Source: Trachythela sp. YZ-2020 (Eukaryota > Cnidaria > Anthozoa > Malacalcyonacea > Clavulariidae). From it: 64,000 nt of DNA. Below, one piece after another: positions 8,293 through 52,512 of the stretch. Where the stretch lies: contig JADLSH010000282.1 in the NCBI GenBank assembly GCA_016169945.1, forward strand, positions 806,001-870,000. Reading direction: 5' to 3'. Under the pieces are notes generated by a model. It did not search any database. It was given only the letters and a program-made list of their open reading frames with translations, and had not been told where the DNA came from. Both the position numbers and the translations under genes were made by a program. Position 1 is the first letter of the stretch. The number at the start of each line of letters is the position of its first letter.

Positions 8293-8303
8293 CAAGATAT
8301 ACT

Positions 8304-8320: not shown

Positions 8321-8326
8321 AGTGTA

Positions 8327-9553: not shown

Positions 9554-9579
9554 ACTACTAAACCATTAAATTAGTCAAA

Positions 9580-9604: not shown

Positions 9605-9619
9605 CTTAAAGATAAACTA

Positions 9620-10414: not shown

Positions 10415-10445
10415 AATAAATGAGCGACTAGAAACACCATTCAAT

Positions 10446-11656: not shown

Positions 11657-11673
11657 GTTAAGTGATACCTGTC

Positions 11674-11694
11674 ACCTTTCACAAAATGAAAGGT
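11674..11694. terminator. Hairpin between convergent genes
   Basis: ACCTTTCA (11674-11681) and its complement TGAAAGGT (11687-11694) enclose a 5-nt CAAAA loop. It lies 17 bases after the rightward stop (11656) and 19 bases after the leftward stop (11714), so it could end transcripts from both sides. Confidence 0.5.
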
Positions 11695-11713
11695 AACATG
11701 AATGTAACATTTT

Positions 11714-12115
11714 TTAATAAAGTCCTGGGTAAAGTGGTGGCGCTGTTGGTTGTAAGTTCTCAACATACTCTCTTGTCGCTTTTTTCTTCGTTAGCTCAGT
11801 CTCTACCTCTTTAAGCTCGTCTTTACCTGTTTTTATGTCTAAGTTTTTTCGTTTAACCTTTTTCGCTGTCTTAACTGTACCTTTAGCTCCATCTACAATT
11901 GCAACCATACCACCAAGAACTGCTAGCACAATAGCAGATGGAAAAATAATAGCTACGGCTACGCCACCACCTACAAGAACCAGTTTCACTAGCGTCTTAC
12001 CTACTAGTTTGATCTTTTTTTTAAAGATCCCTTTTTTCATTTTAGATAGTACGGTTACTACCTCTTCTTTAATGTCTGAAAGTTCACCTTCAGAGAAGTT
12101 TATGATGTCGTGCAT
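11714..12115 (-). CDS. Membrane protein with C-terminal PTAP/PPxY late-domain motif
   Basis: 133 residues from the ATG at 12115. After a polar N-terminus and a Lys-rich segment ([11 protein letters not shown]), residues about 41-78 are strongly hydrophobic ([32 protein letters not shown]), then a Lys-rich helix. The last residues read [12 protein letters not shown], containing overlapping PTAP and PPLY. In viral budding proteins PTAP binds TSG101 and PPxY binds NEDD4-family WW domains to recruit ESCRT; a similar use here is inferred. It shares a 21-bp divergent promoter with the 12137 gene. Confidence 0.7.
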
Positions 12116-12136
12116 TTATTATATATAATAAAAGAG
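12116..12136. promoter_or_regulatory. Palindromic bidirectional promoter
   Basis: The 21 bases between the divergent ATGs at 12115 and 12137 contain the near-perfect palindrome TTATTATATATAATAA. Both directions therefore offer the same TATA and ATAATAA start context. Confidence 0.55.
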
Positions 12137-12505
12137 ATGTCATATACATTAATTGCTGGAGTTGGCGTTGGAGCATACATTTTAAAGAATATTTTTGGTG
12201 TACAGTGGCAGTTACAAGATACTGCTATGGAACGTTGTGTACATGGTCCAAAAGGCGACTCAATAGTTGGTCCAAAGGGTGACTCAATAGTTGGTCCGAC
12301 TGGTGCGACTGGTGCGACTGGTAAGACTGGTGCGGCTGGACCAAAAGGTGACTCTGTGACTGGTCCGACTGGCAAGACTGGTCTGACTGGACCGTCTGGT
12401 GTACATACCACATACGACGCCAGGCTTGAAAATAAAATTAAAAGGACTAAACAGCTTGACGTTCTTAAAGCAAGTAAAAAACAAAAAAAGGGAATAGTGT
12501 TCTAG
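12137..12505 (+). CDS. Short collagen-like membrane protein
   Basis: 122 residues from the second in-frame ATG; the first (12110) lies within the neighbouring gene's start and the shared promoter. The N-terminus ([20 protein letters not shown]) is hydrophobic and can act as a membrane anchor. About 18 Gly-X-Y triplets follow (residues about 37-90; [20 protein letters not shown]), then a basic Lys-rich tail. It uses the same GPKGDS and GPTGATG units as the 9620-10414 protein, suggesting duplication or recombination between the two collagen segments. Trimer formation is expected; function unknown. Confidence 0.7.
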
Positions 12506-12554
12506 AGAGTGTTCTAGATACGATCTTAATGCGAAATTAAAAGTTTAAAGATTA

Positions 12555-12575
12555 CGTATGTTTTTTTAACATACG
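12555..12575. terminator. Hairpin with T5 loop between convergent genes
   Basis: CGTATGTT (12555-12562) pairs with AACATACG (12568-12575) around five T residues. It lies between the rightward stop at 12505 and the leftward stop at 12589. Confidence 0.5.
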
Positions 12576-12588
12576 CAAACTCAGGTGG

Positions 12589-13083
12589 TTAAAAGTAAAC
12601 CATTATACTCATGACTGACTCGTTACCATATGACGTTCCGTCTAGCTGTCGTAGTTTAAGAATGAAGCCCGCAAGTGATTTATAGTCAGAGGTTACGTCT
12701 TTGAATTTGTACTCACGACCTAAGAAGTACGTGTTTGAGACTCGTATATTTCCGGTGTTATAACTAATATCATCAAGTGGGATGTCAACTGTTGTACCAT
12801 CAAGTTTATACGCTCTGAATACCCATCTTACTTTTAATGTCGTTATAGTCTCGTCGTCGTCAAACGTGTGAGATATTATTACAAACTTAGCGTCGTCGTT
12901 GTTACTTATACAAAACATAACGTTGTGTGGCCAGCCGTTGGCTAAGCTGTATGGGGACGATAAACTGGTTGTACTTAAGGCTGGGTAATAGAATTGGTAG
13001 TGTAACGTTTTTAGTTGTGTGATAGGACTGAAATTTGTATTGAACTCGATATTTTCAGACGTGTAACCAAAGTTTAGGCTCAT
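12589..13083 (-). CDS. Beta-rich protein sharing the fibre N-terminal motif
   Basis: 164 residues from the ATG at 13083, with no membrane segment, zinc site or enzyme motif. The N-terminus MSLNFGYTSENIEF aligns by eye with [14 protein letters not shown] of the collagen fibre-like protein; the rest is predicted beta-rich. The common N-terminus could be the element's capsid-docking peptide, as short N-terminal tails are in adenovirus fibres; this is inference. The start codon overlaps the stop of the upstream 13080-13382 gene in an ATGA overlap. Confidence 0.6.
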   Translation of the reverse strand: MSLNFGYTSENIEFNTNFSPITQLKTLHYQFYYPALSTTSLSSPYSLANGWPHNVMFCISNNDDAKFVIISHTFDDDETITTLKVRWVFRAYKLDGTTVDIPLDDISYNTGNIRVSNTYFLGREYKFKDVTSDYKSLAGFILKLRQLDGTSYGNESVMSIMVYF

Positions 13084-13382
13084 TTATTTATGGTTTTATC
13101 AGCTTTACACTTAATGCAAATAGAGCTGTTAAAATAGCTAATACAACTACTTGGATTATACTCTAACGTTTTTATTTGTTTAATTAGAGAGATATGACGC
13201 TTAGTTACTTTAAACCTAATCATTTTACCTAACGAGTCGTATGATTGGAACGATCTTAACTTACAAGACTTAAACACGTCATCACCATAAACGGTTAGTA
13301 TTTTCACACCAGCACACTTGGTACATATTTTACTGCATTCATTAATACAGCTTTTTGTACATATAATTTTTTTACAACTCAT
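13080..13382 (-). CDS. Small Cys-rich protein, probably zinc-binding
   Basis: 100 residues from the ATG at 13382. The N-terminal 25 residues hold six Cys (CKKIICTKSCINECSKICTK), another Cys pair lies near the C-terminus (CIKC), consistent with two metal sites. The remainder is basic. It has the AAACACACTAATAAAG promoter and overlaps the next gene by ATGA, so the two probably share a transcript. Function unknown. Confidence 0.6.
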   Translation of the reverse strand: MSCKKIICTKSCINECSKICTKCAGVKILTVYGDDVFKSCKLRSFQSYDSLGKMIRFKVTKRHISLIKQIKTLEYNPSSCISYFNSSICIKCKADKTINK

Positions 13383-13387
13383 CGTTC

Positions 13388-13413
13388 CTTTATTAGTGTG
13401 TTTTTTTATATAA
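13388..13413 (-). promoter_or_regulatory. ACACACTAATAAAG promoter box with TATATA
   Basis: Minus-strand reading gives TATATAAA, then AAAACACACTAATAAAGG and AACGATG at 13382. It lies only a few bases past the polymerase stop codon (13429). Confidence 0.6.
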
Positions 13414-13428
13414 ACCGTTTAAACTAGT

Positions 13429-16400
13429 TTATCTAAGAGCTTTAAGAGCTAGTGACGCTAACGTGTTTGTCTTTGGGTGTGGGATCGTTTTTGATAAGAC
13501 AACTCCTTTATTAGTGAGTACCCGCCAATGACCAATGGCTGTTGTCTCTACACCAGTGCCGCTAATAATTCTTTTATCATCACTAGCTGAAAGTGCTACT
13601 TTGTTTATCGTTTCTGTGTAAATCACGTGTGCGCGACTTCTAAACGTATTCATGCTACGGTATTGGGGGGTTCCACTAAACAAACACTTCTTGTAGTCAT
13701 TAAATGAGATGTCTCTCTTGACAACTGCTTTTTTCACGCCTTTACACTTCTTCTCCTCTTTGTTGTCGTCCATTTTGTACGCGTATAGCTTGCTACGCAG
13801 TCCGACGAACTCAGATATTTGTTTACCACCACACTCGTCTTTCATCATGCCAACTACTTTCTTGTTGACCCCTATTGGAATATTGCTGGGGTGGTCAGAT
13901 GGAAAGTTGCTGGTGTCGAAGTGTGTGTGAACATCCTTAGAGATGTCTTTGTAGAAGTCGTCTGTCTTGATCTCATAGCATAGGCTGTCCGTGTCTGTAA
14001 ACAGTAGCTGAGCTTTATCACCATACTTAGTCTTAATGTAGCCGTAGTGGAAATCGTACATTAAGGTTTTACTTATGTCTAGAATGCTCATCCCTAAGTA
14101 GATAGGCTTGTTTAATTTAATAGAGGTTCTGTTCATGTTAACCGCGACAAGGTTCTCTGTGAATATATTCGTGCCTTTGAAGTTAGGCTTTTTAGCTAAC
14201 TTTTGAAGTTGGTCGGGTCGTGTAACTAATCTAACGTCTACCCGTTTGCGAACGTTTTCCATTGTCTTTCCGAACACACTGACGTTCATTTGCTTGAAGA
14301 AGTCTTTTTCAAAGTCGGTGGTGGCTTTAGTTCTAAGGTCGGTGTTAAGTTGAATGTACTCTTTTAACCATGGTCTCTCATTAAATTTAATGCCTCTGTG
14401 AATCTTAGTTAATTTCAAGCCTAGTTTTATGTACTGTTCTAAGTTGCGGTAATGTAGTACGTACTTAGTTTTGTTGTTAAGATTAGGTATAAGCTTATCT
14501 ACCTTGTTTACTGTTAGTCTCTCTGGTGCTAACGGGTACTCGTTGTGATAGTCGTGTAACTCTGCCGGATACTCAAGGTCAACTTCTAATATACAACCCT
14601 TACCCTTACCCAATTTGTTCCATGAGTCTAACTCTTTGTCAGTCATCCACTTAAATCCATCCACTGGTAGTGGTTGACTCATCGCCCACCCGTATTGGTT
14701 GTTAGCATCTAAGTATGAAATATATATAGATTGCTCTTCGGTTTTATGTTCACTCATATACTTATTGTTGGCCTTAGCATATCTTTTTGTTATGGTGCTA
14801 ACCCCACCTCTAATACCTTGTTCTATCATTAGATACATGTCTGGGTCAGTTAGTAACTCTAACTTTACTTTAGAGATCTTTAGTGCAGCATCCCAAGCTA
14901 GACCGGGTGCGGTGTAATACCATAAGGGGTCTAAGCCATAGTTTTTAAAACATATTTCTCGGTAGTGCTCCATGACGTCTGTAAGTAGTAAGACGTCTGT
15001 GAGTAGGTATAGGTCGTGGTAATCACGCATCGTCTTACAATCAAACCTATTCCACACTTTTAGTGCGTGTTTGAAGTCTTTGTCTGTTATGTTAGTACCA
15101 TTAAGCTCACTATGAAAGGCTGACATAGATGGTAATTTGGTCTCACCAAGTTTATCAAAGCCTGTCATGTACTCGTATGGGTACACGCCTTTCCTTTTAA
15201 GCAGCTTACACGTACCAAGAACCTGCTCAAGAGTTTTAAACTCATCCTCACCAAGAATTTTTACAAGGCTGTCTAACGACTTGTATGTAAATTTGAACGA
15301 GTCAAGAAACCTAATTTCAAGTGTTTTTTCGTACTCTTTACCAGTTTTCTTATCTGTGTACGACTCCATGACGACGTTTTTACTAAATGAGATATATCTC
15401 TCATCTGTCTTTGGAATGCATTTAACGTTACCCTCTGAGAATCCAAGACTTTTAATGAAAAGGTGAGAGTCGTACCCTTCCAGGTTGTGAAACAACACTG
15501 GTACGAATTTTGGGGTTCGCATTTTAAGGTTACACGCGTTGTGAGCAGCACCGCGATACTTACCTGTGATATGACAGTGGTCTCTCACACGGTCATTATT
15601 TAATTTTAACCCACACGCGTAACAGTCTTTCACGTTGGTGAAGTTGACGTCGTCTTTTGTTGTCATCCTGATGGGTACGACCTTTGATAATATTTTATAA
15701 ACGTCTTTTAAGTCTCGCTCTAATGAATCTACGAATTTTTTACCTATATCTTCACCCTCTTTTTTGATGGTGTACCTCACCGTTTTTAATGGGTATACCA
15801 TCTCGTCGATACACTTAATGACGTAACAAAAACCATTTGGGTCGTGTCTGTGAGTCTGTGTTGTAAAGCTCTTAGTTGGGTCGTTCTTAACAGTGCTAAT
15901 GGGTGGTAGGAATGACTCAAAGTCGGCGTTAACAACAAATGGCACCATATGCATTTTATGATAATGCTGAAACTCTATGTAAGATCCCTTGGGTGGGTAA
16001 ATGTGTCTTTGGTGGTCATGATTGTCGCACAGCTCTTTGTGTTGATCTAATAACATCTCAGTACCAAAGCTGTTTAGACACCTTGTACAGATGTACTTTT
16101 TGTGTTCCTTTTTGCTTAGCTGGGATGCTATCAACCTGCTAATGTCTTTCACAACACTATAATGCTCATCAAAAAAGAACAAGTTAACATGCTTCGTGTT
16201 ACTAGTTTTGCTTAGCCTTAGTGTGTACACGCTATTAGCCTCATCGTCGTAACTAAAAACGTTAACGCTTACGTTGTTGTTGGTCTCAAATTTAGATATG
16301 TCTTTGACATTCATTGGAAACTTAAGGTTGTCCCAGTTAAGTTTTTCGGCCTGTAATTTTAAAATTTTAGTAACACGCTCTGCGTCGCGCTCAACTAGGT

Positions 16401-17583
16401 TTAGGGCTCTTGTAACCGCCCACTTAAAACACTGGTCGTCATCGTTTTCTATGTTAATGACGGCCTTTTTAAACTTAATAAAGTTTGGTAGTGGTTTGTA
16501 ACTGCTGCCTTGTAATGGTGTAAACTTTGTGATACTAATCTTAAGCTCTTCTACAGACATAAACCGCCACCCAGAGCCTAACTTCTGATACTCTGCTAAC
16601 GACTCGAGCATCTTCTCTTTCATTATCTCGTACTCTATAACGGCGTCCTCTTCGTTAATTACGCTGTGCGTGTCGCTACGAAAGTGTGATATCGTAATTA
16701 TCGAGTCGTTGGTTTGTGGGTCGAGTTTAATCATTTTACATATCAACACGGTGTTGACCTTTTTACCTATGCTATTGATGCTGTTAATCAGCTTTGTTAC
16801 CTCGAAGGTGGTCACCTTCAGAAACGTCTTTGGATCTTTGAAGTTCCCACCGCTTATTGACCACTTACTTGTGAGCTTGTCTAGAGACTCTGAGATGAGT
16901 CTTGGTTTTAGGTTTTTACCTTTGTCATAAATTCTCTGAAGTTTGTTACGAAAGGTGTTTCTGTTTTTGATTATTTTTTTGTTCGTGCCGGTCCATCTAA
17001 GGTCGTCGAGTACTTTGGTTTGTCTTTTGGTCTCTTGCTTGATTTCGCGTGTCCACTGGTTTCTGTCTCGAGTGCTTTGCTTTTTATGGGCTCTGGTTCT
17101 AAGTCGATCAGCTCGGTCCTCTGCTTTTTGTCTAAGTCGTGACTCTTGTTTGATCTCACGTGTCCACTTGGTTGTCTCATCTTTGAGCTGTCGTTGTTGT
17201 CTTTTAAGTTCTGTTACTTTGGCCCGCTTCGCTTCGTAATCATATCTTTGTTTTAAAATGTCGTTCTCTTTGGTATGATGACGATCATACTTAGCCCGCA
17301 CTTGACTCTCTATCTTTCGCATCGCTGTTAATCTTCGAGTCTTCTCAGCGTCTTTAAATGTTATTAGAGCCTCACGCTCTCGGTCTGCGCGACGTCCAAG
17401 ACGTTCCTTTTGTTGAATCTTTTGCTCTCTTTTGAGAGTCTTAGACCAGACTTTGTCGATGGTCGCGTTTTCTTTTTCCATCGCGTTGTGCTGAAGTGAT
17501 TGAATCTCGTCGTTGAGTTTACGCTTACGTTGAGCTCGTTGAGCTTGTTGTAAGTTAAGTTTGTTTGAACTTAAAGTATTCAT
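13429..17583 (-). CDS. Protein-primed family B DNA polymerase
   Basis: 1384 residues from the ATG at 17583. Residues 1-220 are very Arg/Lys/Glu-rich coiled coil. A Polinton-type middle region follows (DDDQCFKWAVTRAL, then a CTRCLNSF...H...C zinc site near 500). The proofreading domain is intact: ExoI NADFESF (about 548), ExoII HNLEGYDSHLF (about 695), ExoIII YLLTDVLLLTD (about 860). Polymerase motifs are intact: A YLDANNQYGW (about 960), B FFKQMNVSVFGKTMENV (about 1100), C FTDTDSLCYEI (about 1195). It would copy the element from a terminal protein primer; no separate terminal protein was identified, and the basic N-terminal extension is a candidate for that role. Confidence 0.95.
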   Translation of the reverse strand: MNTLSSNKLNLQQAQRAQRKRKLNDEIQSLQHNAMEKENATIDKVWSKTLKREQKIQQKERLGRRADREREALITFKDAEKTRRLTAMRKIESQVRAKYDRHHTKENDILKQRYDYEAKRAKVTELKRQQRQLKDETTKWTREIKQESRLRQKAEDRADRLRTRAHKKQSTRDRNQWTREIKQETKRQTKVLDDLRWTGTNKKIIKNRNTFRNKLQRIYDKGKNLKPRLISESLDKLTSKWSISGGNFKDPKTFLKVTTFEVTKLINSINSIGKKVNTVLICKMIKLDPQTNDSIITISHFRSDTHSVINEEDAVIEYEIMKEKMLESLAEYQKLGSGWRFMSVEELKISITKFTPLQGSSYKPLPNFIKFKKAVINIENDDDQCFKWAVTRALNLVERDAERVTKILKLQAEKLNWDNLKFPMNVKDISKFETNNNVSVNVFSYDDEANSVYTLRLSKTSNTKHVNLFFFDEHYSVVKDISRLIASQLSKKEHKKYICTRCLNSFGTEMLLDQHKELCDNHDHQRHIYPPKGSYIEFQHYHKMHMVPFVVNADFESFLPPISTVKNDPTKSFTTQTHRHDPNGFCYVIKCIDEMVYPLKTVRYTIKKEGEDIGKKFVDSLERDLKDVYKILSKVVPIRMTTKDDVNFTNVKDCYACGLKLNNDRVRDHCHITGKYRGAAHNACNLKMRTPKFVPVLFHNLEGYDSHLFIKSLGFSEGNVKCIPKTDERYISFSKNVVMESYTDKKTGKEYEKTLEIRFLDSFKFTYKSLDSLVKILGEDEFKTLEQVLGTCKLLKRKGVYPYEYMTGFDKLGETKLPSMSAFHSELNGTNITDKDFKHALKVWNRFDCKTMRDYHDLYLLTDVLLLTDVMEHYREICFKNYGLDPLWYYTAPGLAWDAALKISKVKLELLTDPDMYLMIEQGIRGGVSTITKRYAKANNKYMSEHKTEEQSIYISYLDANNQYGWAMSQPLPVDGFKWMTDKELDSWNKLGKGKGCILEVDLEYPAELHDYHNEYPLAPERLTVNKVDKLIPNLNNKTKYVLHYRNLEQYIKLGLKLTKIHRGIKFNERPWLKEYIQLNTDLRTKATTDFEKDFFKQMNVSVFGKTMENVRKRVDVRLVTRPDQLQKLAKKPNFKGTNIFTENLVAVNMNRTSIKLNKPIYLGMSILDISKTLMYDFHYGYIKTKYGDKAQLLFTDTDSLCYEIKTDDFYKDISKDVHTHFDTSNFPSDHPSNIPIGVNKKVVGMMKDECGGKQISEFVGLRSKLYAYKMDDNKEEKKCKGVKKAVVKRDISFNDYKKCLFSGTPQYRSMNTFRSRAHVIYTETINKVALSASDDKRIISGTGVETTAIGHWRVLTNKGVVLSKTIPHPKTNTLASLALKALR

Positions 17584-17588
17584 TGCTC

Positions 17589-17655
17589 CTTTATTTATGT
17601 GTTTTTGTATATAATCTATTTAAACTATTTTATCGATTCTTTATTAGTGTGTTTT
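17589..17655 (-). promoter_or_regulatory. Duplicated promoter box upstream of the polymerase
   Basis: Next to the ATG at 17583 the minus strand reads TATATACAAAAACACATAAATAAAGGAGC. A second copy, ACACACTAATAAAG, lies about 45 bases further upstream (17638-17655). Two boxes before one gene are seen only here, close to the element end. Confidence 0.55.
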
Positions 17656-17784
17656 TTTTTTGACTTTTTTTTTTTCTCAACCCGTTTGGTGCCGGTTGGT
17701 GGTGGTGTCGGTTGGTGATGGCGTCGTAACGATTTGAGAAATGTTGTAGAAATGTTTTGAAACTGATAAATTAAAAATGCGCCA

Positions 17785-17806
17785 GAACCGGCCTTTCCCT
17801 ACTACT
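17785..17806. other. Inferred right terminus of the Maverick
   Basis: The sequence CCGGCCTTTCCCTACT ends with ACT (17801-17803, repeated at 17804-17806); on the opposite strand the end reads AGTAGGGAAAGG. Harbinger-like terminal repeat sequence begins immediately after. Without the left end, neither the terminal repeat nor the target duplication can be checked. Confidence 0.5.
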
Positions 17807-17909
17807 AAAGACACCACTCACACTCAAGTGAAGCTCAGATTTTGAGTGAAGTGTGAGCGAGAGGTATACGTCCCTTGAGCATCACTCAACTTTACATAAT
17901 CATACCAAC

Positions 17910-18947
17910 ATGGCGGATAGGTGGCTAAATAGGTTAGAATGTTTGAATAATATTGTACCAAACAACAGAAATAGACGGAACCCATATCTCTTTGATTATG
18001 GGAAATATGACGAGGAGCAATTTCGGAACAGATACCGATTGACTAAGGCAGCATTTCGCGAGTTAATGGAAATAATCAGGCCAGACATATCTGCACACAA
18101 CGACAGAGGAAAACCCATTCCAGCTGATATTCAACTTTTATTAACGCTACGGTTTTACGCCACGGGAACATTTCAGCTTGCATGCGGAGACCTGTGCGAA
18201 ATTTCGCAGCCATCAGCAAGTCGGATTATAAAACGTGTATCCGAGGCAATCGCACGCTTAAAGAATATTTACATTACATTTCCTGATGGTGACATGCTGC
18301 AGCAACTCAAACTGGATTTCTGGAGAATCTGTGCATTTCCCAGTGTTGTGGGTGCAATTGATTGTACACACATCAAAATACAAAGCCCTGGGGGCGAGAA
18401 TGCTGAACTCTTTCGAAATCGGAAAGGATATTTTTCAATAAACGTTCAAGCTGTTTGCGGACCAAATTTAAAAATTTTAAACATTGTTGCTCGGTGGCAT
18501 GGTAGCGTCCATGACGCCAGAATTTTCGATAACAGTCGACTATGTGCACAGTTCGAACGTGGTGATATCCCTGGCATGTTACTTGGTGATAGTGGTTACC
18601 CATGCCGCCAATATCTCATGACGCCAATACGTGATCCGCAGACCCGACCACAACGCAATTATAATGTGGCTCAAATACGAACACGAAATACCGTGGAGAG
18701 GATGTTTGGCACATGGAAGAGGTTGTTCCCATGCTTAGCAACGACCATTCGCACAAAACTGCAAACGACGCTAACTATCATTGTCGCTACAGCTGTGTTG
18801 TTCAACTTTATAAGAAGCCGAAATGACCCTATGGATGAAGCAGAACATTTGCCGGCTGACGAGGAAGAAGTGAATGATATTCATGCTGGTGAACGGGTTT
18901 TGGGAAATGCTGTTCGCGAAGCGCTGATAATGCAACATTTCACATAA
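17910..18947 (+). CDS. HARBI1-like PIF/Harbinger transposase
   Basis: 345 residues from the ATG at 17910, which has a good context (AACATGG); the frame is open earlier but without ATG and within the terminal repeat. An N-terminal helix-turn-helix-like region (LLLTLRFYATGTFQLACGDL then SQPSASRIIKRV) precedes the DDE nuclease. Catalytic residues are all present: D in GAIDCTHI (about 150), D in LLGDSGYP (about 226), E in RNTVERMFG (about 262). The C-terminus is acidic. The gene has no stop or frameshift, so the enzyme could be active. It needs the Myb-like partner for nuclear import and end binding in this superfamily. Confidence 0.9.
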   Translation: MADRWLNRLECLNNIVPNNRNRRNPYLFDYGKYDEEQFRNRYRLTKAAFRELMEIIRPDISAHNDRGKPIPADIQLLLTLRFYATGTFQLACGDLCEISQPSASRIIKRVSEAIARLKNIYITFPDGDMLQQLKLDFWRICAFPSVVGAIDCTHIKIQSPGGENAELFRNRKGYFSINVQAVCGPNLKILNIVARWHGSVHDARIFDNSRLCAQFERGDIPGMLLGDSGYPCRQYLMTPIRDPQTRPQRNYNVAQIRTRNTVERMFGTWKRLFPCLATTIRTKLQTTLTIIVATAVLFNFIRSRNDPMDEAEHLPADEEEVNDIHAGERVLGNAVREALIMQHFT

Positions 18948-40801: not shown

Positions 40802-40966
40802 CTAACCAAGGTTTTCCAAATCAGCAAGTCTATTAATTCTAGTTGAAGCAAAACTATCTCTTGTTTTAACAAAAATTTTACCGTCTATACTGTACGCATA
40901 ACCTTTATCCTTACAAGCCTCCTTCGATCGCTTCAGTAACCATAGGTTATGACTTGTGAGATCCTC
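40802..40966 (-). pseudogene. LINE ORF1, C-terminal part
   Basis: Reads EDLTSHNLWLLKRSKEACKD to a stop at 40,802. Its first two codons (GAG GAT) are the 6-bp duplication shared with the other half at 51,967-51,972, so phase is kept across the insertion. Confidence 0.85.
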
Positions 40967-41052
40967 AGTAGGTTACAGCCGACATATGGCGTTGGAAGTA
41001 ATTAGTATTCAGGATGTCAAAGAGGAAGTATGACATCATGTGGATATTCGTA

Positions 41053-41213
41053 TCTACGTATAAGGGTATACGTATATGGCACCGGAAGTATGTATAGGGG
41101 TATACGTATAGGGGTATACGTATAAAGGTATACGTATAACCCTCTTTAATTAAAGTTTATTGGATTGTATAGCGGTATACGTATAAGGGTATACGTATAG
41201 GGGTATACGTATA
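41053..41213. repeat. TATACGTATA array, 14-bp period (left arm)
   Basis: Seven perfect TATACGTATA palindromes begin at 41,067, 41,101, 41,115, 41,129, 41,176, 41,190 and 41,204, mostly 14 bases apart with GGGG, AAGG or AGGG spacers, plus variants at 41,053 and about 41,090. It lies 80-285 bases before the TATA box region and ATG of the 41,338 gene, the place for an operator or enhancer. Confidence 0.85.
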
Positions 41214-41292
41214 GGAGGGATAACGTCATAAACAAATGTGGCGCAACAACGTTCGATGCGGTCTGACTGGTTAAGTCTATGCACGGTACAAG

Positions 41293-41300
41293 TATAAAAG
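41293..41300 (+). promoter_or_regulatory. TATA box for the 161-codon gene (left)
   Basis: TATAAAAG lies 38 bases before the ATG at 41,338, a normal distance for a TATA box with a very short 5' leader. Confidence 0.6.
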
Positions 41301-41337
41301 TCAAAAGGGTGATAAGTATTCATTTTAAGTTGTAGAG

Positions 41338-41823
41338 ATGGAGTGTTTACATGGAAAACCTGCTGAACAGTCTACATGGGCACAAGATGTACAGGTAGAT
41401 GAGGTTTCGTCCTCGGAATATAAAAAACTTTTCAGTTTGTTAGAGGCTATATATGCAGAGGCTGTTTTTGACGAAGTTTGTAAGCTAAGTAAAGAAAGGT
41501 GTTGTGGCTGCGAGTATGATCACCCAAGTCAGCGCCAGCACGACTGTCTCATGTTATCAGAACAAGAGAGATGGCAAACGTATGGTTTGGAAGCGATAGA
41601 GCGAGTAATCAATAAACGTATGGTCTGGAGAGAATTTGTCGAGGCTATTAGAGTGATGAAACTACAGTACCATAAAGATGTTCGTGGGCATTTTGAAAGT
41701 CTAGAGAAAAGTCCTGATTCAACGTTTGTTTATTCATTGATGGACCTTCGTGAAAACACTGAGGATCGTGAGTTTGAGTCTATTTTGAGCTATCTTTCGT
41801 ATTGGAGAGAGGACAGACTTTGA
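41338..41823 (+). CDS. 161-residue Cys/His-motif protein in the left arm
   Basis: A complete frame with TATA box upstream and stem-loop downstream. The central motif CCGCEYDHPSQRQHDC (about 58-73) has four Cys and two His in a tight spacing and probably binds zinc. The rest is helical and acidic (SSEYKKLFSLLEAIYAEAVF; YLSYWREDRL at the end). No signal peptide or membrane segment. I have a loose memory of GC-x-x-x-HPSQ-x-H-x-C proteins repeated in cnidarian genomes but know no function. The right arm codes an identical protein, so selection or arm homogenisation keeps both. Confidence 0.75.
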   Translation: MECLHGKPAEQSTWAQDVQVDEVSSSEYKKLFSLLEAIYAEAVFDEVCKLSKERCCGCEYDHPSQRQHDCLMLSEQERWQTYGLEAIERVINKRMVWREFVEAIRVMKLQYHKDVRGHFESLEKSPDSTFVYSLMDLRENTEDREFESILSYLSYWREDRL

Positions 41824-41896
41824 AATAAAATTATCTTGGAGCGACTTTGGGCGAGATCCTTGACGTCAGGGAAGCGTACAAGACACAAAAAAACCC

Positions 41897-41912
41897 GGCT
41901 CTTTTAAGAGCC
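41897..41912 (+). terminator. Histone-type 3' stem-loop (left)
   Basis: GGCTCTTTTAAGAGCC forms a 6-bp stem with a 4-nt TTTA loop, 74 bases after the stop codon. Stem sequence, loop size and distance match the histone mRNA 3' stem-loop bound by SLBP, and A-rich sequence (AAAAGAAC) follows at about 41,925. An AATAAA also overlaps the stop region (41,824-41,829), so a polyadenylated form is possible as well. Confidence 0.65.
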
Positions 41913-42210
41913 ATCAAATATACTAAAAGAACTAAACGAGTTTCGTGTTTACATATTTATAGTATGCACTGAGCACATTTCGCTTAGCGTCAATACCCCA
42001 ACACATGGACAGATCAAATGACAAATCAGAAATGTATAGTGTACACTGAACACATTTCGCTGAATATCAATACTTTTCGCATGAAATTCTTCGATAATCA
42101 CTCATTTATCAAACCAATAGTCATTTTCCAGTGCCTAAGTTTTATTACTATCTTACTAGCTTAGCTGTGAGATACAAAGGATTTGAATAATTTTTGACAG
42201 CTAATTGGAA

Positions 42211-44423
42211 CAGCCTCGTACCCAGGCGCTTTTAAGGAAAAGAAAAGTTACGCATTCAGCTAATTTATAGAGATCAGTGGCTAAGCGAGCGCGCGGGGGT
42301 GCTTGGGGAGGTCTTGAAACGCGGTGCATTTTGGGGAGGTCCTGATGAAGCAAAGTAGCGCCTGGCAGAAAATGACCGATTTCTTGACAATCTCGACCGA
42401 TTTCTTGACAATCGTATATAACTTTTGAATTCGTTCATGTTTGACCTATTTTTTGCTTCTGGTAACTTGTACTTGACGCTACCTTGGATAATCTGCAGAA
42501 ATCTCTCCAAGAATTGTCTTTTGAAGGTAAAATTTTATAAATTTCGGTACACACCGGCGTGGTGTATACTGTATAGTATATAAAAACAAATATGTGTTCT
42601 TGGTTTTATTGTTGTCCTTTGTTTTGACTTTTCAATCCCTAATTTGACTTACTTTAAGATGAATATTGTAATACAACATGTTAGTATCCTCAATAGACCT
42701 CATTACCTCAAGTTCTAGTGCTGAACTAGACGTAACTTTCGGACATTTAAATGTTCATATTTGAATGTCTGTAGTTCATATTAATATATTTCTGACTATA
42801 AAGATGCCACTATGTCAGTTTTGAACTTTTGATTAATTAGCATCAATGGAAATGCAATGTATTTGTCCCCTGTTTAAAATTTATATTTGTAGAACCAGAT
42901 GCTTCCAGCACTCGATCCTGTAAAGGAAACTCAGATCCCTTCAACCAGGAAAACATATTTAATATCAGTAAAGATAAAAATATATATTGTTTAAATACAT
43001 GTATAAATACATGGATATTGACTGAAGTAGCAGGGTTACCAAGAGCATCTGGAAATAACCAGTATATTCATGAGGTAGGGTCACAGAACCTTCACCCTAA
43101 CACACAATAGACTATAGGGTTACTGGTTACCAGGGTAACCTTGTGGCTAGGATCAACCTATTGTCATGTAAACAGCCCATGGGTCAAACAGTGTGTTTTG
43201 TGTTCTTTTTAGCTTACAATCTGTCCAGTTCCCAGTGTGATGAGAGAAGGCATAAGTTGTCAACTGAGCTGGAACATGTTGCTGAGTATTGATGAAGACT
43301 CAAATATTTATGTGAAACAGTCATTGTGATGGATTTGCTTGATTTGACATCCAACGAGAACAGCATTCTCACTCGAAAAGTTTAGCATGTTTTCCAGGTC
43401 CAATAAAACAGAAATAAATGATTGAATGTGAACAAATGTGTTGTATTTTTTAAAATTATCCTTATTTAAAATTATTATGGCTCTGATCTGCATAATAAGT
43501 AGACAGTCAATTAGGGTGTTTTATTTTGCTTTAATATATAGTATGAAATTTTGAGGTGATTAATACAATAACAAACCTGAGAAAACTTAAAAATGGATAT
43601 ACCGTAAGAGCCCCCCAGCACATGACTTTCAATGTCTTGTTTGAATGTTATTTGCTTTGTAGAGCCTGATAAAAATATCTTTCAGGGACCCTGGGGAAAG
43701 GGTGGCATGGCCCCGTCGGTCATTGAAAACAGCACAGAGTCCTGCCCCCCATATAGGAGTAGCCCAAAAATGTTTTAAACAGCACAAATTTATTACAATT
43801 TGAGTATGAGAAATGTAAGGTACACTGCTGTGCAATCACAGTGTGTGTGTAGGTACTAATCTTTCTGTGAAAATAAATGGCATTGGCAGAAAGCACATGC
43901 ATGGAATAATTCAGTGAGCATAAAACAGAAATTCTGCTTTAGAAAACCAAATTATAAATGATATTCAGATGGGAGTTGAGATTACATTAGCCAGGACACT
44001 GGCAGGAAAGTACAATTTTAACTTATAACAATATTAAATTAAATTGCAAATTATCAGTATTGCATTGGTTTTAATGTTTTATTTATTTAATACTTAAAAA
44101 ATACTAAAGTACACTAAAATTCTTGTTGTTTTCCAGAAAAAACTCTTTTCGCAGTGCATTCATCATTTGGACACAAAATATTTCCTGAACATACAACACT
44201 GTGTATAAATCTTTCAGTTTGCGACGACAATTGCAATATTTTCTCATTTGCATTCATTGATATTAAAAATCACTGCCGCCATCTTTAGTACATTTTCTGC
44301 CAGGCGCTTCCTTCGTCAAGACCTCCCCAAGCACCCCCGCGCGCTCGCTTAGCCACTGATCTCTATAAATTAGCTGAATGCGTAACTTTTCTTTTCCCTT
44401 AAAAGCGCCTGGGTACGAGGCTG
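42211..44423. mobile_element. Nested nonautonomous DNA transposon, 9-bp target duplication
   Basis: 2,213 bp with TIRs of about 160 bases starting CAGCCTCGTACCCAGGC. TAATTGGAA is duplicated on both sides (42,202-42,210 and 44,424-44,432) and occurs once in the uninterrupted right arm. No transposase frame inside; the interior is A/T-rich. A 9-bp duplication suggests the Mutator-like group, but the CAG terminus is not diagnostic. Confidence 0.85.
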
Positions 44424-45346
44424 TAATTGGAATATAAAATAATGATTTCCGACTTAGCAGCATGAGTCTAAGTAAAACATTTTGATCTATGCACACATAT
44501 TTTGTTAGTCAGGAACTCATCCTCAAAATATACACCTAGTTAGCACTGATAAGACCTTTTTATTATGACATTACACAATCGTCTCTCTCTCTCCTGTTGC
44601 GATAAAAATGTGGACATGTTTGTGAGGCACTTATTGCTGATTTTTGACGTGCTATAGCGATGTTTACTATAGAGGTCTATAGATGCTTACTGATGTTTAC
44701 TTTGGTATGCTGTGTTCAATGAGCCGTGCGCGCATAAATTTAGGTTGATCTATGCACACATATTTTGTTAGTCATTGACACTACTCAGTTCACGAATCCT
44801 TTAAGGGTGATATCGCCGCATTGTACAAGTTTTTCTAGCTGTACCAATCCTTTGCATAGCACACACATCCTTCTTGAATTCCATCGCCTCGTATTTTTCT
44901 CCTGCGCCTTCGCATTAAGTTCGCATCTTTCTCATGCGTCTTCGCATCAAGGCCTTTGTGGCCCTATGCGCCGCTTTTGCTTCGCATTCTTCGCATTTTG
45001 CTCATGCGTCTTCGCATTAAGGACAGCCCTTCGCACAAATATACAGCTTTTACACATATTGTCTGGGTTTTACACTATTTTCCAGCTTAGATCACTTGAC
45101 GTTTCGATATTTCTGTATATTTCGGGTTCCTAGAGTTCCCTCGGTTCTCTCGGGTTCTCACATATTTAGCGAGTCCCGTAGAAGTGCTCCTTTACGGGAC
45201 CTTGTTGCGGGACATATTTAGCAAGTCCTGTAGAAGTACTCCTTTACGGGACCTTGTTGCGGGACATATTTAGCGGGTCCCGACGTCCCTTGCGTCCCGT
45301 TTGAACGATTTTCTAGCCATCTTTTTGCGGACATAATTTCAGGAAC

Positions 45347-47755
45347 AGGCCTGCTCTGGGATCTTAACTCGCCGCGAGATAATGCAAGTTAAGGCGAGTT
45401 TAGGCGATTTAAGAAAAAACACAACTTTTAGGTAATGCGTTTTAAGGCGTTTTAGGGCGATTTAAGGCGATTTAAGAAAAAATACATGGTAATTAAATAT
45501 GCAAGTATAGTACTTTAAGCAAAATACAGTAATAACACATAATTAATAGTGCATAGTAAATGTATTTTGAAAGAGCACCACTCCCCCCCTCACACCCCCA
45601 GGGGGTCTGGTTAGACTGTCATGTAAACAAGACCCAGTTGAAACTTATTATTAATTAGCTTGTTATTTTGCCGTATTACTAATTTTAAGGTTATACCACC
45701 AAATTGCTGGAATTAATACAATGAAGAACATAAACCAGTATATAATAAATATTTTAAATTGAATTGCATACTAATACCTATTACTAAGTTCAGTCCTGGA
45801 ACCGCAATCAATTGGAAATCTAAAAAATCAGGGTTGTGGCTGGAATGTAGGAACGAGAAGATTTAGTGCATCCCATGGGGTTGCTATCCTATATTTTGAG
45901 AATTTCCAAATGCATGAATGCCTTGCCAATATCTTGGAAATTCCAAGGGTACAGAATATATTAAAACTGTGACCATGCATGTTCCAATGTGGCAATACAT
46001 TGTAGTTTAATATTCAAACGAATTTACATGTGTTAAACTTACCAAATAAGCTTGAATTACGTTGCAAATATAGTATTTCATTTCCATGTGTTCATTTAAT
46101 AAGTAAAACTCAACATTGATTGGTATATATTTTAATTCCCCTCAATATATAAAGATATATAAAGTGCAGTATTTATAAAAATTCACTAATGTTAAAATTT
46201 AGTTTATATAAAGTTTTCCAGACTTGAATAATAAATTTCCGCTGGATAGCCTGAGAGAAGGCTCCCTCCCCGCATGCAGGCTAACATGAAGTATTTAACT
46301 GAATTCATGAAAATGCCAGGTTTTGTTATCGACCCAAGATCTTACGCTAAAAATGTTAAACCTCGGTTATTAAAACGATCATGGATCTTTATATAAGACG
46401 ATATGAACCGGACAATGCTGACTATAAAAGTTGACCAGGATCATGCTGTGGTTTATCAATTTATGTAAGTTTGAACACTGTTGATATAAAATATTAAATG
46501 TTGTGCACTACAGGCACTGCAATTCAGCACTTGTATATAAGGCCGTCGGAATTACCGTCACTTAAAATTTCGAAAGTTGATAAGCCCTCTACCCTGTAAT
46601 TTATAGGCCCCGCACTATTTTCAATAAAGGAAAACGAAACAATTTATGAATTGTTCTGGAAGTTCATATCACAATATTGGCATATTAATTATACTTATCG
46701 AAATAGATAAAATGTTGAAAACAGACTGATTCTTGCCATCCTGACTTTTTTCTGTTTGAATATAAGGGTTCCTATGTCATATTATATACCTATAAGCTTG
46801 ATAGTATGTAACTTATGCACCAGTCATGGAAAGCCTCGCACCCCCCTATCCGGGACATGCCGGGAAATAGCGGGGATTTATTTGCAGATTAGCCTATCTG
46901 TTATGCCTGGGTACTCAGGGCATTAGACAGCGTACGTTAGATATGTGTCATGATGGCCACTGGGATTATGGGCTGGGAATCAGTGGGAATTCGTCTGTTC
47001 GAGATGTATTATTAAGCCTTGTTCATTGACATTTACCCTATACTCAATAGACATTGTTTTACTAAAAATAGCTTTTACAGGATAATGTATTATTTGACTT
47101 TGTGTAAATTGCAAGATACGGCTAACAGACAAAATGCAAAATATTTACCTACTTTGGCAAAGTTTTGACAAACTCTGGATTGCATGTTTGGCCTCCAATG
47201 ATCAAAATTAGGGAAATTTTAGAATAGTTTGTTGAATTTTAAAAGCAATAATTATGGTAGCCTTCATTTTTGGTGCCCGGGTAGCGGGGGACTTTAGTCA
47301 TGTTTAGACTAGTAAGAAGGCCATGTATAGGTTGGGGATTAGAATGATTTAGGACACAACCTTTATCTAATGTCCGCCGTTCCCTGGGTAGGGGGGTGCG
47401 TGGCTTTCCAATTACTAGTGCATTACTGTGTTTCGGCTTTTATCAATAAGCATGTAACTTCCCTTGTTTCGGCTAAGCCCCTCTCTCCAGCAAGCCCCCT
47501 CGGATAAGCGCCCTCCTAATCTTATCTGAAATAAACAACCAGAACCCCCCTCTCCTGGGGAAAGGGTGTTTACACTGTATATAGTATTTACTATTTTCAG
47601 CATTTTAATTTGGTTGGTGAGTTTAGGCGATTTAGTGCGAGTTTAAGCGATTTAAGAGAATTGTTGCCAATTTTTATCCGCGATTTAAGGCGAGTTAGGG
47701 CGATTTAAAGCGATTTAAGGCGATTTAAGGCGAGTTAAGATCCCAGAGCAGGCCT
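45347..47755. mobile_element. Nested nonautonomous DNA transposon, 6-bp target duplication
   Basis: 2,409 bp with 27-bp TIRs beginning AGGCCTGCTCTGGGATCTTA. AGGAAC is duplicated (45,341-45,346 and 47,756-47,761) and single in the right arm. Next to both ends lie many TTAAGGCGATTTAAGGCGAG-like subterminal repeats (45,375-45,480 and 47,620-47,740), typical binding sites for a transposase. No coding capacity. Superfamily unassigned (6-bp groups include Dada and IS3EU). Confidence 0.85.
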
Positions 47756-48170
47756 AGGAACGCAGGGAGATTTTTCAAGTGGAGGTTCTCATCGAAACCG
47801 TAATGATTTTTAGAGTAAAATATCGCTACCGGTACACCGTTTTGGTTGACTGCATGTATAAATTAACACAACACGGATTAACACTTTAAACAAATTTATT
47901 CTTTTAAGTATAACAATTTTACAGAAATAAACAGTGATTACTGTCCAGCTTAGAACGTTTGACTTTGTAAACATTTCCTCTGTTAGCAAAAGTTTACGTT
48001 TCTGTCCCTTACGTGCTATGGGCTTAACAGAAATGTGTAAGACATGGTTTACTGAGATTACAGCCAAACAGGGCTGCTCTAGACATCTGCTGGCTTACAC
48101 CGTTTCAGGAAAAAAGTAAGTGATCAAACAATTTGACTGAGGCAATTGCTTTTTTTGAACACATTTATTA

Positions 48171-48998
48171 TTAATGATAATGTAATTTATTTTTCAATTG
48201 ATAATGTACGCCAGTATCATCACCATCATCACCACCATCATCATCACCATCATCATCATGACTGTCATGGAAATGCTGTCTGTCTTCTAGCAGACGCTTG
48301 AAAAGATATTTTCTTTTTTCTACTGCGGAATATAAAGCTTCGTCCCGGTCGAGGAAATCTACGTCTATCAAATTATCTCTTGTCTGCATAATCTTCTGGT
48401 GAGTTGGATCTTTTTTCATGTGTGACATCCACAGCAGCCGGTCTGCATAAACATCTTCTAGTTCTTTGGTCAGTTTTGGGAGAATTGCTGAAAACGATCG
48501 CCTTTTAGCTTCAACCTCACTAAAACCTTCATTTTCAACGCACTTAACGTTTTCTTGAAATTCATCAAAAAGGTGCAGTTTTGCTTCATGTATCAACGTT
48601 TGCCAGGGGTCATAGTCCTCTCCATCTTCGCTGGTTTGGTAATCCCCGTCTTCGCTCTCCTCTTTGTTGTCATTTTCCTCGCTGTTCTCATTTTCTTCGC
48701 TGCTGCTCTCTTTTTCTTCGCTGTTATATTCTTCCTCGTTATAATCATCACTATCGAAAATATCGCCGTTTTGATATTCAGAAGAGGTAGATGCCCCTTC
48801 ATCGAAATTATCCATTCTAGCTCTTTTCGCTCTGGGCATAATGTCGTGGTCTTCTTCATCTGCGCAAGATGACTTGACGTTATTCAGATAAACATGTCTT
48901 TCTTCACTTGATAACCGGTGGGTGTCTGCCAAATGATTGGATAGTTTGCAAATGTTTTTCGTTCCGCACAGAGGACAGTCTTTACGCGTTCGTGGCAT
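48171..48998 (-). CDS. 275-residue zinc-finger acidic protein in the element centre
   Basis: From the ATG at 48,998. The N-terminus has one C2H2-like finger (CPLCGTKNICKLSNHLADTH, 8-27). Residues about 65-135 are a very acidic Glu/Asp/Ser/Asn stretch. A helical domain follows (about 135-245; VYADRLLWMSHMKKDPTHQKI), which I associate with zinc-finger proteins carried by cnidarian mobile elements. The C-terminus is Asp/His-rich (DSHDDDGDDDGGDDGDD). AATAAA follows the stop at about 48,164-48,169. It is the only single-copy gene of the element. DNA binding is inferred. Confidence 0.7.
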   Translation of the reverse strand: MPRTRKDCPLCGTKNICKLSNHLADTHRLSSEERHVYLNNVKSSCADEEDHDIMPRAKRARMDNFDEGASTSSEYQNGDIFDSDDYNEEEYNSEEKESSSEENENSEENDNKEESEDGDYQTSEDGEDYDPWQTLIHEAKLHLFDEFQENVKCVENEGFSEVEAKRRSFSAILPKLTKELEDVYADRLLWMSHMKKDPTHQKIMQTRDNLIDVDFLDRDEALYSAVEKRKYLFKRLLEDRQHFHDSHDDDGDDDGGDDGDDTGVHYQLKNKLHYH

Positions 48999-49064
48999 GG
49001 AGCGAAATGACTTCTCTTTTCATGGTACACAGTTTTTAATGATTATGTCGAACAAACACGTCCT

Positions 49065-49619
49065 TGAAAAAGCCTGTAGAAGTGTCCTTACGTCCCGTAA
49101 GACTGTGCCATGGCGATACCTATACATTTTGTCAAGCGGGACCCCGGGACATCGCTACGGGACGCATTTTAACGCGTCCTTACGTCCCGTAAGACTGTGC
49201 CATGGCGATACCTATACATTTTGTCAAACGGGACCCCGGGACGTCGATACGGGACGCACCTGAACGCGTCCCGACGTCCCGTAAGACTGTTCCATGGCAA
49301 GACCTATACATTTTGTCAAACGGGACCCCGGGACGTCGCTACGGGACGCATTTGAACGCGTCCTTACGTCCCGTAAGACTGTGCCATGGCGATACCTATA
49401 CATTTTGACAAACGGGACCCCGGGACGTCGCTACGGGACGCCGATTTTAACGCGTCCTTACGTCCCGTAAGACTGTTCCATGGCAAGACCTATACATTTT
49501 GTAAAACGGGACCCCGGGACGTCGCTACGGGACGCATTTGAACGCGTCCCGACGTCCCGTAAGACTGTTCCATGGCAAGACCTACACATTTTGTCAAACG
49601 GAACCCCGGGACGTCGCTA
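49065..49619. repeat. 92-bp tandem repeat, about six copies
   Basis: CGTCCCGTAAGACTG begins at 49,091, 49,183, 49,275, 49,367, 49,461 and 49,553, so the period is 92 (once 94). Each unit is CpG-rich and holds GGGACCCCGGGACGTCG. It stops exactly where the right arm starts. Related CGTCCCG/ACGGGAC motifs recur in the arms. Long open frames through it are by-products. Confidence 0.85.
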
Positions 49620-51020
49620 CGTTATTTCTGTAAAATTGTTTTACTTAAAGGAATAAATTTGTTTAAAGTGTTAATCCGTGTTGTGTTAATTTATACATGC
49701 AGTCAACCAAAACGGTGTACCGGTAGCGATATTTTACTCTAAAAATCATTACGGTTTCGATGAGAACCTCCACTTGAAAAATCTCCCTGCGTTCCTGAAA
49801 TTATGTCCGCAAAAAGATGGCTAGCAAATCGTTCAAACGGGACGCAAGGGACGTCGGGACCCGCTAAATATGTCCCGCAACAAGGTCCCGTAAAGGAGTA
49901 CTTCTACAGGACTTGCTAAATATGTCCCGCAACAAGGTCCCGTAAAGGAGCACTTCTACGGGACTCGCTAAATATGTGAGAACCCCGAGAGAACCCCGAG
50001 GGAACTCCTAGGGAACCCCGAAATATACAGAAATATACGAAACGTCAAGTGATCTAAGCTGGAAAATAGTGTAAAACCCAGACAATATGTGTAAAAGCTG
50101 TATATTTGTGCGAAGGGCCTTAATGTCCTTAATGCGAAGACGCATGAGCAAAATGCGAAGAATGCGAAGCAAAAAGCGAAGGCGCATAGGGCCACAAAGG
50201 CCTTGATGCGAAGACGCATGAGAAAGATGCGAACTTAATGCGAAGACGCAGGAGAAAAATACGAAGGCGATGGAATTCAAGAAGGATGTGTGTGCTATGC
50301 AAAAGGATTGGTACAGCTAGAAAAACTTGTACAATGCGGCGATATCACCCTTAAAGGATTCGTGAACTGAGTAGTGTCAATGACTAACAAAATATGTGTG
50401 CATAGATCAACCTAAATTTATGCGCGCACGGCTCATTGAACACAGCATGCCAAAGTAAACATCAGTAAGCATCTATAGACCTCTATAGTAAACATCGCTA
50501 TAGCACGTCAAAAATCAGCAATAAGTGCCTCACAAACATGTCCACATTTTTATCGCAACAGGAGAGAGAGAGACGATTGTGTAATGTCATAATAAAAAGG
50601 TCTTATCAGTGCTAACTAGGTGTATATTTTGAGGATGAGTTCCTGACTAACAAAATATGTGTGCATAGATCAAAATGTTTTACTTAGACTCATGCTGCTA
50701 AGTCGGAAATCATTATTTTATATTCCAATTAGCTGTCAAAAATTATTCAAATCCTTTGTATCTCACAGCTAAGCTAGTAAGATAGTAATAAAACTTAGGC
50801 ACTGGAAAATGACTATTGGTTTGATAAATGAGTGATTATCGAAGAATTTCATGCGAAAAGTATTGATATTCAGCGAAATGTGTTCAGTGTACACTATACA
50901 TTTCTGATTTGTCATTTGATCTGTCCATGTGTTGGGGTATTGACGCTAAGCGAAATGTGCTCAGTGCATACTATAAATATGTAAACACGAAACTCGTTTA
51001 GTTCTTTTAGTATATTTGAT

Positions 51021-51036
51021 GGCTCTTAAAAGAGCC
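51021..51036 (-). terminator. Histone-type 3' stem-loop (right)
   Basis: Mirror copy of 41,897-41,912, 74 bases after the stop of the leftward gene. Unchanged between arms. Confidence 0.65.
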
Positions 51037-51109
51037 GGGTTTTTTTGTGTCTTGTACGCTTCCCTGACGTCAAGGATCTCGCCCAAAGTCGCTCCAAGAT
51101 AATTTTATT

Positions 51110-51595
51110 TCAAAGTCTGTCCTCTCTCCAATACGAAAGATAGCTCAAAATAGACTCAAACTCACGATCCTCAGTGTTTTCACGAAGGTCCATCAATGAA
51201 TAAACAAACGTTGAATCAGGACTTTTCTCTAGACTTTCAAAATGCCCACGAACATCTTTATGGTACTGTAGTTTCATCACTCTAATAGCCTCGACAAATT
51301 CTCTCCAGACCATACGTTTATTGATTACTCGCTCTATCGCTTCCAAACCATACGTTTGCCATCTCTCTTGTTCTGATAACATGAGACAGTCGTGCTGGCG
51401 CTGACTTGGGTGATCATACTCGCAGCCACAACACCTTTCTTTACTTAGCTTACAAACTTCGTCAAAAACAGCCTCTGCATATATAGCCTCTAACAAACTG
51501 AAAAGTTTTTTATATTCCGAGGACGAAACCTCATCTACCTGTACATCTTGTGCCCATGTAGACTGTTCAGCAGGTTTTCCATGTAAACACTCCAT
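51110..51595 (-). CDS. 161-residue Cys/His-motif protein in the right arm
   Basis: Residue-for-residue identical to the product of 41,338-41,823, in the opposite direction, so the element expresses the same protein from both ends. All control signals (TATACGTATA array, TATA box, stem-loop) are duplicated too. Identical coding sequence in both arms points to recent formation of the palindrome or continuing gene conversion between arms. Confidence 0.75.
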   Translation of the reverse strand: MECLHGKPAEQSTWAQDVQVDEVSSSEYKKLFSLLEAIYAEAVFDEVCKLSKERCCGCEYDHPSQRQHDCLMLSEQERWQTYGLEAIERVINKRMVWREFVEAIRVMKLQYHKDVRGHFESLEKSPDSTFVYSLMDLRENTEDREFESILSYLSYWREDRL

Positions 51596-51632
51596 CTCTA
51601 CAACTTAAAATGAATACTTATCACCCTTTTGA

Positions 51633-51640
51633 CTTTTATA
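51633..51640 (-). promoter_or_regulatory. TATA box for the 161-codon gene (right)
   Basis: Mirror of 41,293-41,300: TATAAAAG on the minus strand before the ATG at 51,595. Confidence 0.6.
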
Positions 51641-51719
51641 CTTGTACCGTGCATAGACTTAACCAGTCAGACCGCATCGAACGTTGTTGCGCCACATTTG
51701 TTTATGACGTTATCCCTCC

Positions 51720-51880
51720 TATACGTATACCCCTATACGTATACCCTTATACGTATACCGCTATACAATCCAATAAACTTTAATTAAAGAGGGTTATACG
51801 TATACCTTTATACGTATACCCCTATACGTATACCCCTATACATACTTCCGGTGCCATATACGTATACCCTTATACGTAGA
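51720..51880. repeat. TATACGTATA array (right arm copy)
   Basis: Mirror copy of 41,053-41,213 upstream of the leftward 51,595 gene, with the same copy number and spacing. Confidence 0.85.
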
Positions 51881-51966
51881 TACGAATATCCACATGATGT
51901 CATACTTCCTCTTTGACATCCTGAATACTAATTACTTCCAACGCCATATGTCGGCTGTAACCTACT

Positions 51967-52512
51967 ATCCTCATTAACATAGAATGGTTTGCCCTTGAGA
52001 CTCTTCTTTGCCTTCATGATTTTAACCTTTGAGGCATGACTTCTAAACTTCACAATAATCGCCCTTGGATTCCTGCCATTTTGCCTCCCTACACGGTGAG
52101 CTCTATCAATTTCCTGCTCATCTAAATCTACACCAAGTTCATTTTTACAGAAGTCCACCACAGATTTAGTGCAATTTTCAACCATGACCGAATCACTGAT
52201 AGTATTAGGAGAATCCACGCCAAAAATGCGATTGTTGGTCCTTTGAGAGTATTGCTCATTATCATTGGCCTTTTGAGTAACCGCCTGTAATTGATATTCG
52301 AGGTTTTCAATTCTTTGTTTCAATGGTTGAACTGCTTCGTTTATCATCGCGGCTATAACATCATTTAGCGACGCTTTCACGGTTTCACCAAATTCGTCTG
52401 AGTGTAGGTATTTTGATAGTTCGCTCTGAATAATTCCACCAAGATCTAAATCTTTAAGAGCTGCCGTAGAAGAACGCGTCTTCCATCTTAATTCCGATTC
52501 TTTAGGATTCAT
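51967..52512 (-). pseudogene. LINE ORF1, N-terminal part, truncated by insertion
   Basis: 182 codons from the ATG at 52,512. An N-terminal coiled coil (VQPLKQRIENLEYQLQAVTQ) precedes an RRM-like/transposase-22-like domain (LDEQEIDRAHRVGRQNG, AIIVKFRSHASKVKIM), the standard RNA-binding ORF1p layout. The frame enters the 11-kb element after KGKPFYVNED and stops soon afterwards. Confidence 0.85.

Follow-up and report, generated by a model that had tools for sequence, protein, structure and literature searches.

The locus described here raises the question of how a large inverted-repeat element without recognised Maverick (Polinton) core genes comes to have the ends and the target duplication of a Maverick. 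The element occupies positions 40967-51966 of a window (the whole stretch of 64,000 nucleotides that was analysed) from the anthozoan Trachythela sp. YZ-2020 (GenBank assembly GCA_016169945.1, contig JADLSH010000282.1, positions 806,001 to 870,000), and it consists of two mirror-image arms, each with the same gene, and a unique centre. The reading favoured here, with a probability of about 0.7, is that it belongs to a multi-copy, non-autonomous, mirror-image family that derives from a Maverick lineage and whose copies a Maverick integrase inserts in trans. According to an excerpt of PMC8097293, Mavericks of vertebrates have AGT ends and 6-base-pair (bp) duplications, both being hallmarks of these elements. 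Integration in trans by a Maverick integrase is the simplest account of the ends and duplications described below.

The insertion and its mirror-image arms

The element begins with AGTAGGTTACAGCC at 40967 and finishes with GGCTGTAACCTACT at 51966 (AGT...ACT, each end being the reverse complement of the other). It is bordered by the target duplication ATCCTC (40961..40966 and 51967..51972), an exact 6-bp match, as an initial annotation of the sequence had claimed. When the flanks are joined at a single ATCCTC, the frame of a retroelement lacking long terminal repeats (non-LTR), with a weak Transposase_22 match under the Pfam cut-off, is restored and is stop-free across the junction for about 50 codons. 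Because this frame reads through the joined flanks, 40967-51966 is an insertion. Exact occurrences of its terminal 23 bases in the genome are limited to its own two ends.

The size of 11 kilobases (kb) first proposed is right for the span but not for the element proper, which measures about 6.36 kb (11,000 - 2,222 - 2,415) once two insertions nested in the left arm are discounted. Without them the left arm is 2,327 bp long and the right arm 2,345 bp, so that the arms of about 2.3 kb in the initial annotation stand. The left arm (plus strand) comprises an outer part (40967..42210), 100% complementary to the right arm, an inner part past the first nested insertion (44433..45345) and an innermost part past the second (47761..47930); the right arm (49622..51966, minus strand) is not interrupted. 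Subterminal arrays of TATACGTATA-type units are located at 41055..41213 and 51720..51878. Between the arms lies the unique centre, of about 1.7 kb (47931..49621), which, if its internal 92-bp tandem repeats (5.8 copies, 49084..49621) are disregarded, resembles no other part of the element.

Both nested insertions are found in the left arm only, and the right arm shows the sequence without them. The first (42211..44423) has a 9-bp duplication, TAATTGGAA, and inverted ends CAGCCTCGTACCCAGGCGC; the second (about 45346..47755) has a probable 5-bp duplication, AGGAA, and inverted ends CAGGCCTGCTCTGGGATC. No gene was recognised in either. Arrays of the 10-bp unit GCGATTTAAG lie close to each end of the second.

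The arms do not differ over their outermost 1,517 bp; the 21 difference events between them all fall further inward, within the inner third (2e-10 if the events are assumed to be independent and evenly spread, some of them being clustered by the alignment). The gap bases (18/18) are all absent from the left arm and are likewise located inward. Such polarity could have arisen through copying from end to end prior to insertion, through subsequent decay of the inner left arm or through an error in the consensus. The last makes it conceivable that the structure is an assembly artefact, or else a chance inverted repeat, which is extremely improbable given that the empty site restores a frame and that the same plan is found again on many contigs. 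The mirror-image element is real.

Ends and duplications across the genome

Comparison of the arm protein with the genome gave 150 scored matches (874 candidates), many of which form inward-facing pairs; at least 25 such pairs, counted by eye, exist besides the element in the window. The 800-bp end regions of 20 facing pairs were sampled, and 14 of these pairs could be delimited on either side. All 14 start with AGTAG(A/G)T, which leads into a C-rich run. Exact 6-bp duplications border 12 of these pairs (GATATT, ATGGTG, TATTTA, TCTATT, TTTAGT, TTGTTT, ATTATA, CTCACC, CGCCGC, ACTGTT, GTCATA and CACGAT). Ten of the 12 boundaries were recovered also by a scan without the AGT requirement, and those of C147 and C155 by the AGT-anchored scan alone. 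The AGT-free scan was filtered because palindromes inside the arms swamped the unfiltered one; it left residual palindromic arm matches of 5-9 bp in C351, C2, C147, C108, C50, C155 and C221, as well as an 8-bp match, offset by one base, in C106.

In the thirteenth pair, C2, GCGGTT borders the two ends, provided that the right one is read (by eye) as AGTAGTAG and the left one as AGTAG, a script that assumes equal ends giving 2/6; in C351 the duplication matches at 5/6 bases. Delimited copies elsewhere, to which the initial annotation had pointed as a check, therefore share AGTAG in 14/14 cases and an exact 6-bp duplication in 13/14, C2 being counted with its extra AGT. In an excerpt of PMC8097293, repeated end units such as (AGT)2 are said to make possible the jumping-back step when replication is protein-primed. 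A complete second AGT is found solely at the right end of C2, the other ends being AGTAG(A/G). That the number of AGT units differs between the ends of C2 fits jumping-back replication and is a testable trace of it.

Genes of the arms, of the centre and of longer members

Frames of at least 150 amino acids within 40967-51966 are of two kinds only. The arm gene (P0001 family, 161 amino acids) is present twice and identically (41338..41823, plus strand; 51110..51595, minus strand), as an intact open frame situated 371 bp from the element end and oriented inward; the identical gene in each arm and the unique centre of the initial annotation are thus upheld. The centre gene (P0002 family, 275 amino acids; 48171..48998, minus strand) codes for a protein that shows C2H2-like Cys/His spacing (judged by eye), is acidic in its middle and is helical at its end; its structural model is weak (predicted local distance difference test, pLDDT, 57). 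The integrase, the ATPase and the putative polymerase (a frame of 1,396 amino acids) of a Maverick located in the same window have no match within the element, in line with the claim that Polinton core genes are missing, although for the polymerase distant relatives could escape detection. Neither a packaging ATPase nor capsid genes were recognised in the element.

Both genes belong to uncharacterised families with many relatives in the protein database. For the arm protein, 72 of 84 candidates pass an expectation value (E) of 1e-3; for the centre protein, 38 of 412 pass with the single sequence and, when a profile is used, 384 of 6,505. Among the invariant positions in an alignment of 23 of 73 arm sequences are C55, G57, C58, H62, Q65, H68 and C70, a pattern that suggests a metal site. 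The predicted fold of the arm protein is all helix (pLDDT 82), with no significant Foldseek match in PDB or BFVD and no significant match among PDB sequences (best E 0.14). Against PHROGs the arm gene gave weak matches only (E 0.067 and 0.21) and the centre gene none. Neither protein has a significant Pfam match, no relatives of either gene were found in viral contigs nor of the arm gene in prokaryote genome contigs, and the two profiles are not related to each other. Over 283 kb of the contig, window included, neither gene occurs outside the element. The suggestion that these are the element's own regulators is unsupported, the C2H2-like spacing of the centre protein being accompanied by no significant Pfam match for either gene and by an unmatched arm fold.

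The interiors of five of the 20 sampled pairs (C351, C106, C108, C296 and C191) were examined. In C351 the centre is 98.9% identical over 1,413 bp and the centre gene 99% identical, and the centre protein finds half-matches in C106 (46%) and C108 (42%). No match to any of six query proteins was found in C296, where the centre gene is absent and the ends and duplication are intact. In the whole genome the centre protein gave 140 scored matches (2,066 candidates), and in eight places these lie between facing arm genes (two in C155, and one each in C351, C149, C221, C294, C280 and C50).

Conserved, multi-copy proteins without a known fold or Pfam name, one of them encoded by a gene that is open in 18/20 of the best rows of genome matches, could also belong to a new kind of self-mobile element in which the arm protein, the centre protein or both act as recombinase. 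This is unlikely: the two proteins are short and have no recognised catalytic domain, the all-helix model of the arm protein has no structural match, and C296 keeps its ends and duplication although its centre gene is missing.

Relatives of the centre gene are also found back to back (-,+), a few hundred bases apart, at C54:126583-128403, C151:3076289-3078210, C105:637813-639751, C40:610457-612243, C230:5573606-5575473, C273:3113011-3114996 and other places of the genome (G000). These pairs suggest a second family of inverted-repeat elements that carries the centre gene. Tandem copies of the centre gene, in steps of about 10.3 kb, occur at G000 C240:1182270, 1192592 and 1202880.

The longest member examined, C191 (about 14.5 kb), has the family ends and the duplication CTCACC. 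Its arms measure about 6.7 kb, are 99.3% identical over the fetched part and contain frames of 245 and 450 amino acids each. An ATPase-like gene with 28% identity to the ATPase of the Maverick in the window (E 1e-8) is present in each arm, and the centre holds a match to residues 145-364 of the integrase of that Maverick (42% identity, E 1e-50; L065:5729-6400), which starts at most 20 bp from the inner arm end. A remnant that matches the C191 ATPase (E 5e-19) is also found in C108. The 1,396-residue frame has no match in the five interiors, C191 included. No other transposase was recognised in C191; an unrelated transposase gene in longer members is what the initial annotation had named as a refutation. 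In members with intact ends it is thus Polinton-type genes, rather than an unrelated transposase, that were met with.

These results bear on another origin, namely that the family is a non-autonomous branch of a different 6-bp cut-and-paste superfamily (IS3EU, GingerRoot or an undescribed one) and that the Polinton genes of C191 are captured passengers. Subterminal repeat arrays, which are common in cut-and-paste elements such as IS3EU and GingerRoot, are present in the mirror-image element. In an excerpt of PMC10045372, IS3EU and GingerRoot are also described as yielding 6-bp duplications. The same excerpt gives their ends as TA..TA for IS3EU and as TA..TA or TG..CA for GingerRoot, whereas those of the family are AGT..ACT in 14/14 delimited pairs. 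ATPase-related sequence is, moreover, present in both C191 and C108, and an origin of this kind is considered quite improbable.

Candidate helpers, proposed origin and comparison with known systems

A Maverick had been placed at 1-17,806 of the window and proposed as helper of the element. Its right end is indeed at 17806, but it begins upstream of the window and extends from L003:8763, that is, over 19,044 bp. It has identical terminal inverted repeats of 155 bp, ends AGTAGTAGGG, the 6-bp duplication AAAGAC, an rve integrase with chromodomain and an A32-type ATPase, and its 1,396-residue frame is a putative polymerase that has no polymerase match in Pfam. With the mirror-image element it has the AGTAG(G) ends in common and no significant similarity beyond them. 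Because only these bases are shared and the identity between its integrase and the C191 fragment is 42%, it is a weak candidate for the helper. The proposal of a Polinton satellite accordingly holds for the ends and duplications at family level and is unsupported as regards this particular helper.

Relatives of the integrase of this Maverick are numerous in the genome (108 scored matches from 1,105 candidates, 59-100% identity, many of them stop-free) and are possible helper sources for the family. The integrase piece of C191 is more distant than any of the relatives listed, and its lineage is therefore not among them. Maverick integrase copies in tandem, in steps of about 6.1-6.2 kb, were observed at G000 C235:561085, 567187 and 573388 and at C44:534951 and 541184. 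An open DDE_Tnp_4 transposase frame, which we take to be Harbinger-like, starts 44 bp past the right end of the Maverick in the window (17850-18947).

A fold-back birth is suggested by C191, in which both sides show one and the same genome end and the junction falls in the integrase gene. In a fold-back or panhandle event during protein-primed replication, a Maverick genome that had the arm gene close to one of its ends would have doubled back while being copied, which would leave the product with that end at either side. Most of the core genes would then have been lost and the zinc-finger-like gene would have come to occupy the centre. The resulting molecules, whose ends would be those recognised by a Maverick integrase, could be integrated in trans by a helper Maverick, whose polymerase may copy them and whose capsids may conceivably carry them; replication and packaging would thus be tasks of the helper. 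Descent from a Maverick with the arm gene is argued from the sequences of C191 and C108.

Several observations weigh against this origin. No full Maverick with the family ends or the arm gene was found, and there is no result for a search of the C191 integrase lineage. In a comparison of 61 of the 150 arm-gene places with 43 of the 108 integrase places, none of the former was less than 6 kb from any of the latter. The divergent single arm gene of C368 has no Polinton-gene match in the 5.6 kb examined (nor an AGTAG end outside the gene there), and the arm gene is in consequence assigned to no full Maverick. In Pfam, both the integrase piece and the ATPase of C191 score under the cut-offs (rve, E 0.026; Pox_A32, E 0.017), the interiors examined are those of five of the 20 sampled pairs, and the element's own end, AGTAGG, falls short of a full (AGT)2. 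Finally, the boundaries of 6/20 pairs (C89, C49, C384, C294, C172 and C50) could not be fixed; in four of these, one AGTAG end with the C-rich run is present.

Beyond the Maverick-derived family, it may be that these are true Maverick satellites of animal genomes: mirror-image genomes born by fold-back, replicated, packaged, integrated and amplified by a helper, which have kept conserved arm and centre genes that may act on helper or host, as in virophages. This is proposed only tentatively, its chances being put at somewhat less than even. If it is true, animal Mavericks support satellites, as viruses do.

Among known systems, Polintons (Mavericks) share with the family the AGT..ACT ends, the inverted repeats and the 6-bp duplication, as well as the integrase fragment and ATPase-like gene of the longer member C191. 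They differ from the 40967-51966 copy, which has no integrase, polymerase or ATPase match and whose arms take up 2.3 kb each of 6.4 kb, with a gene inside each arm. A further known group is that of the non-autonomous Polintons of Repbase (the N in Polinton-1N1_DR stands for non-autonomous), which have Polinton ends without core genes; we know of none with gene-bearing mirror-image arms. Polinton-1N1_DR is named in an excerpt of PMC9341505. A phrase search for non-autonomous Polintons or Mavericks in the library used found nothing, and among the titles and openings of abstracts listed by further searches no description of a mirror-image, gene-bearing Maverick satellite was found.

Virophages and Polinton-like viruses carry capsid and replication genes, whereas none were recognised in the 40967-51966 copy. 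What they have in common with the family is that they are proposed to depend on a larger partner, a DNA virus or an element resembling one, virophages and Polinton-like viruses being treated as satellites of giant viruses in excerpts of PMC9952930 and PMC11172284.

The plan of the ends has its counterpart in adenoviruses. Their symmetrical defective genomes, seen in cell culture, are protein-primed linear replicons bounded left and right by the same genome end, which is the plan of the mirror-image family; the latter differs in being chromosomal and multi-copy and, if its proposed origin is true, would be a record of defective-genome formation in such a replicon, preserved in host DNA.

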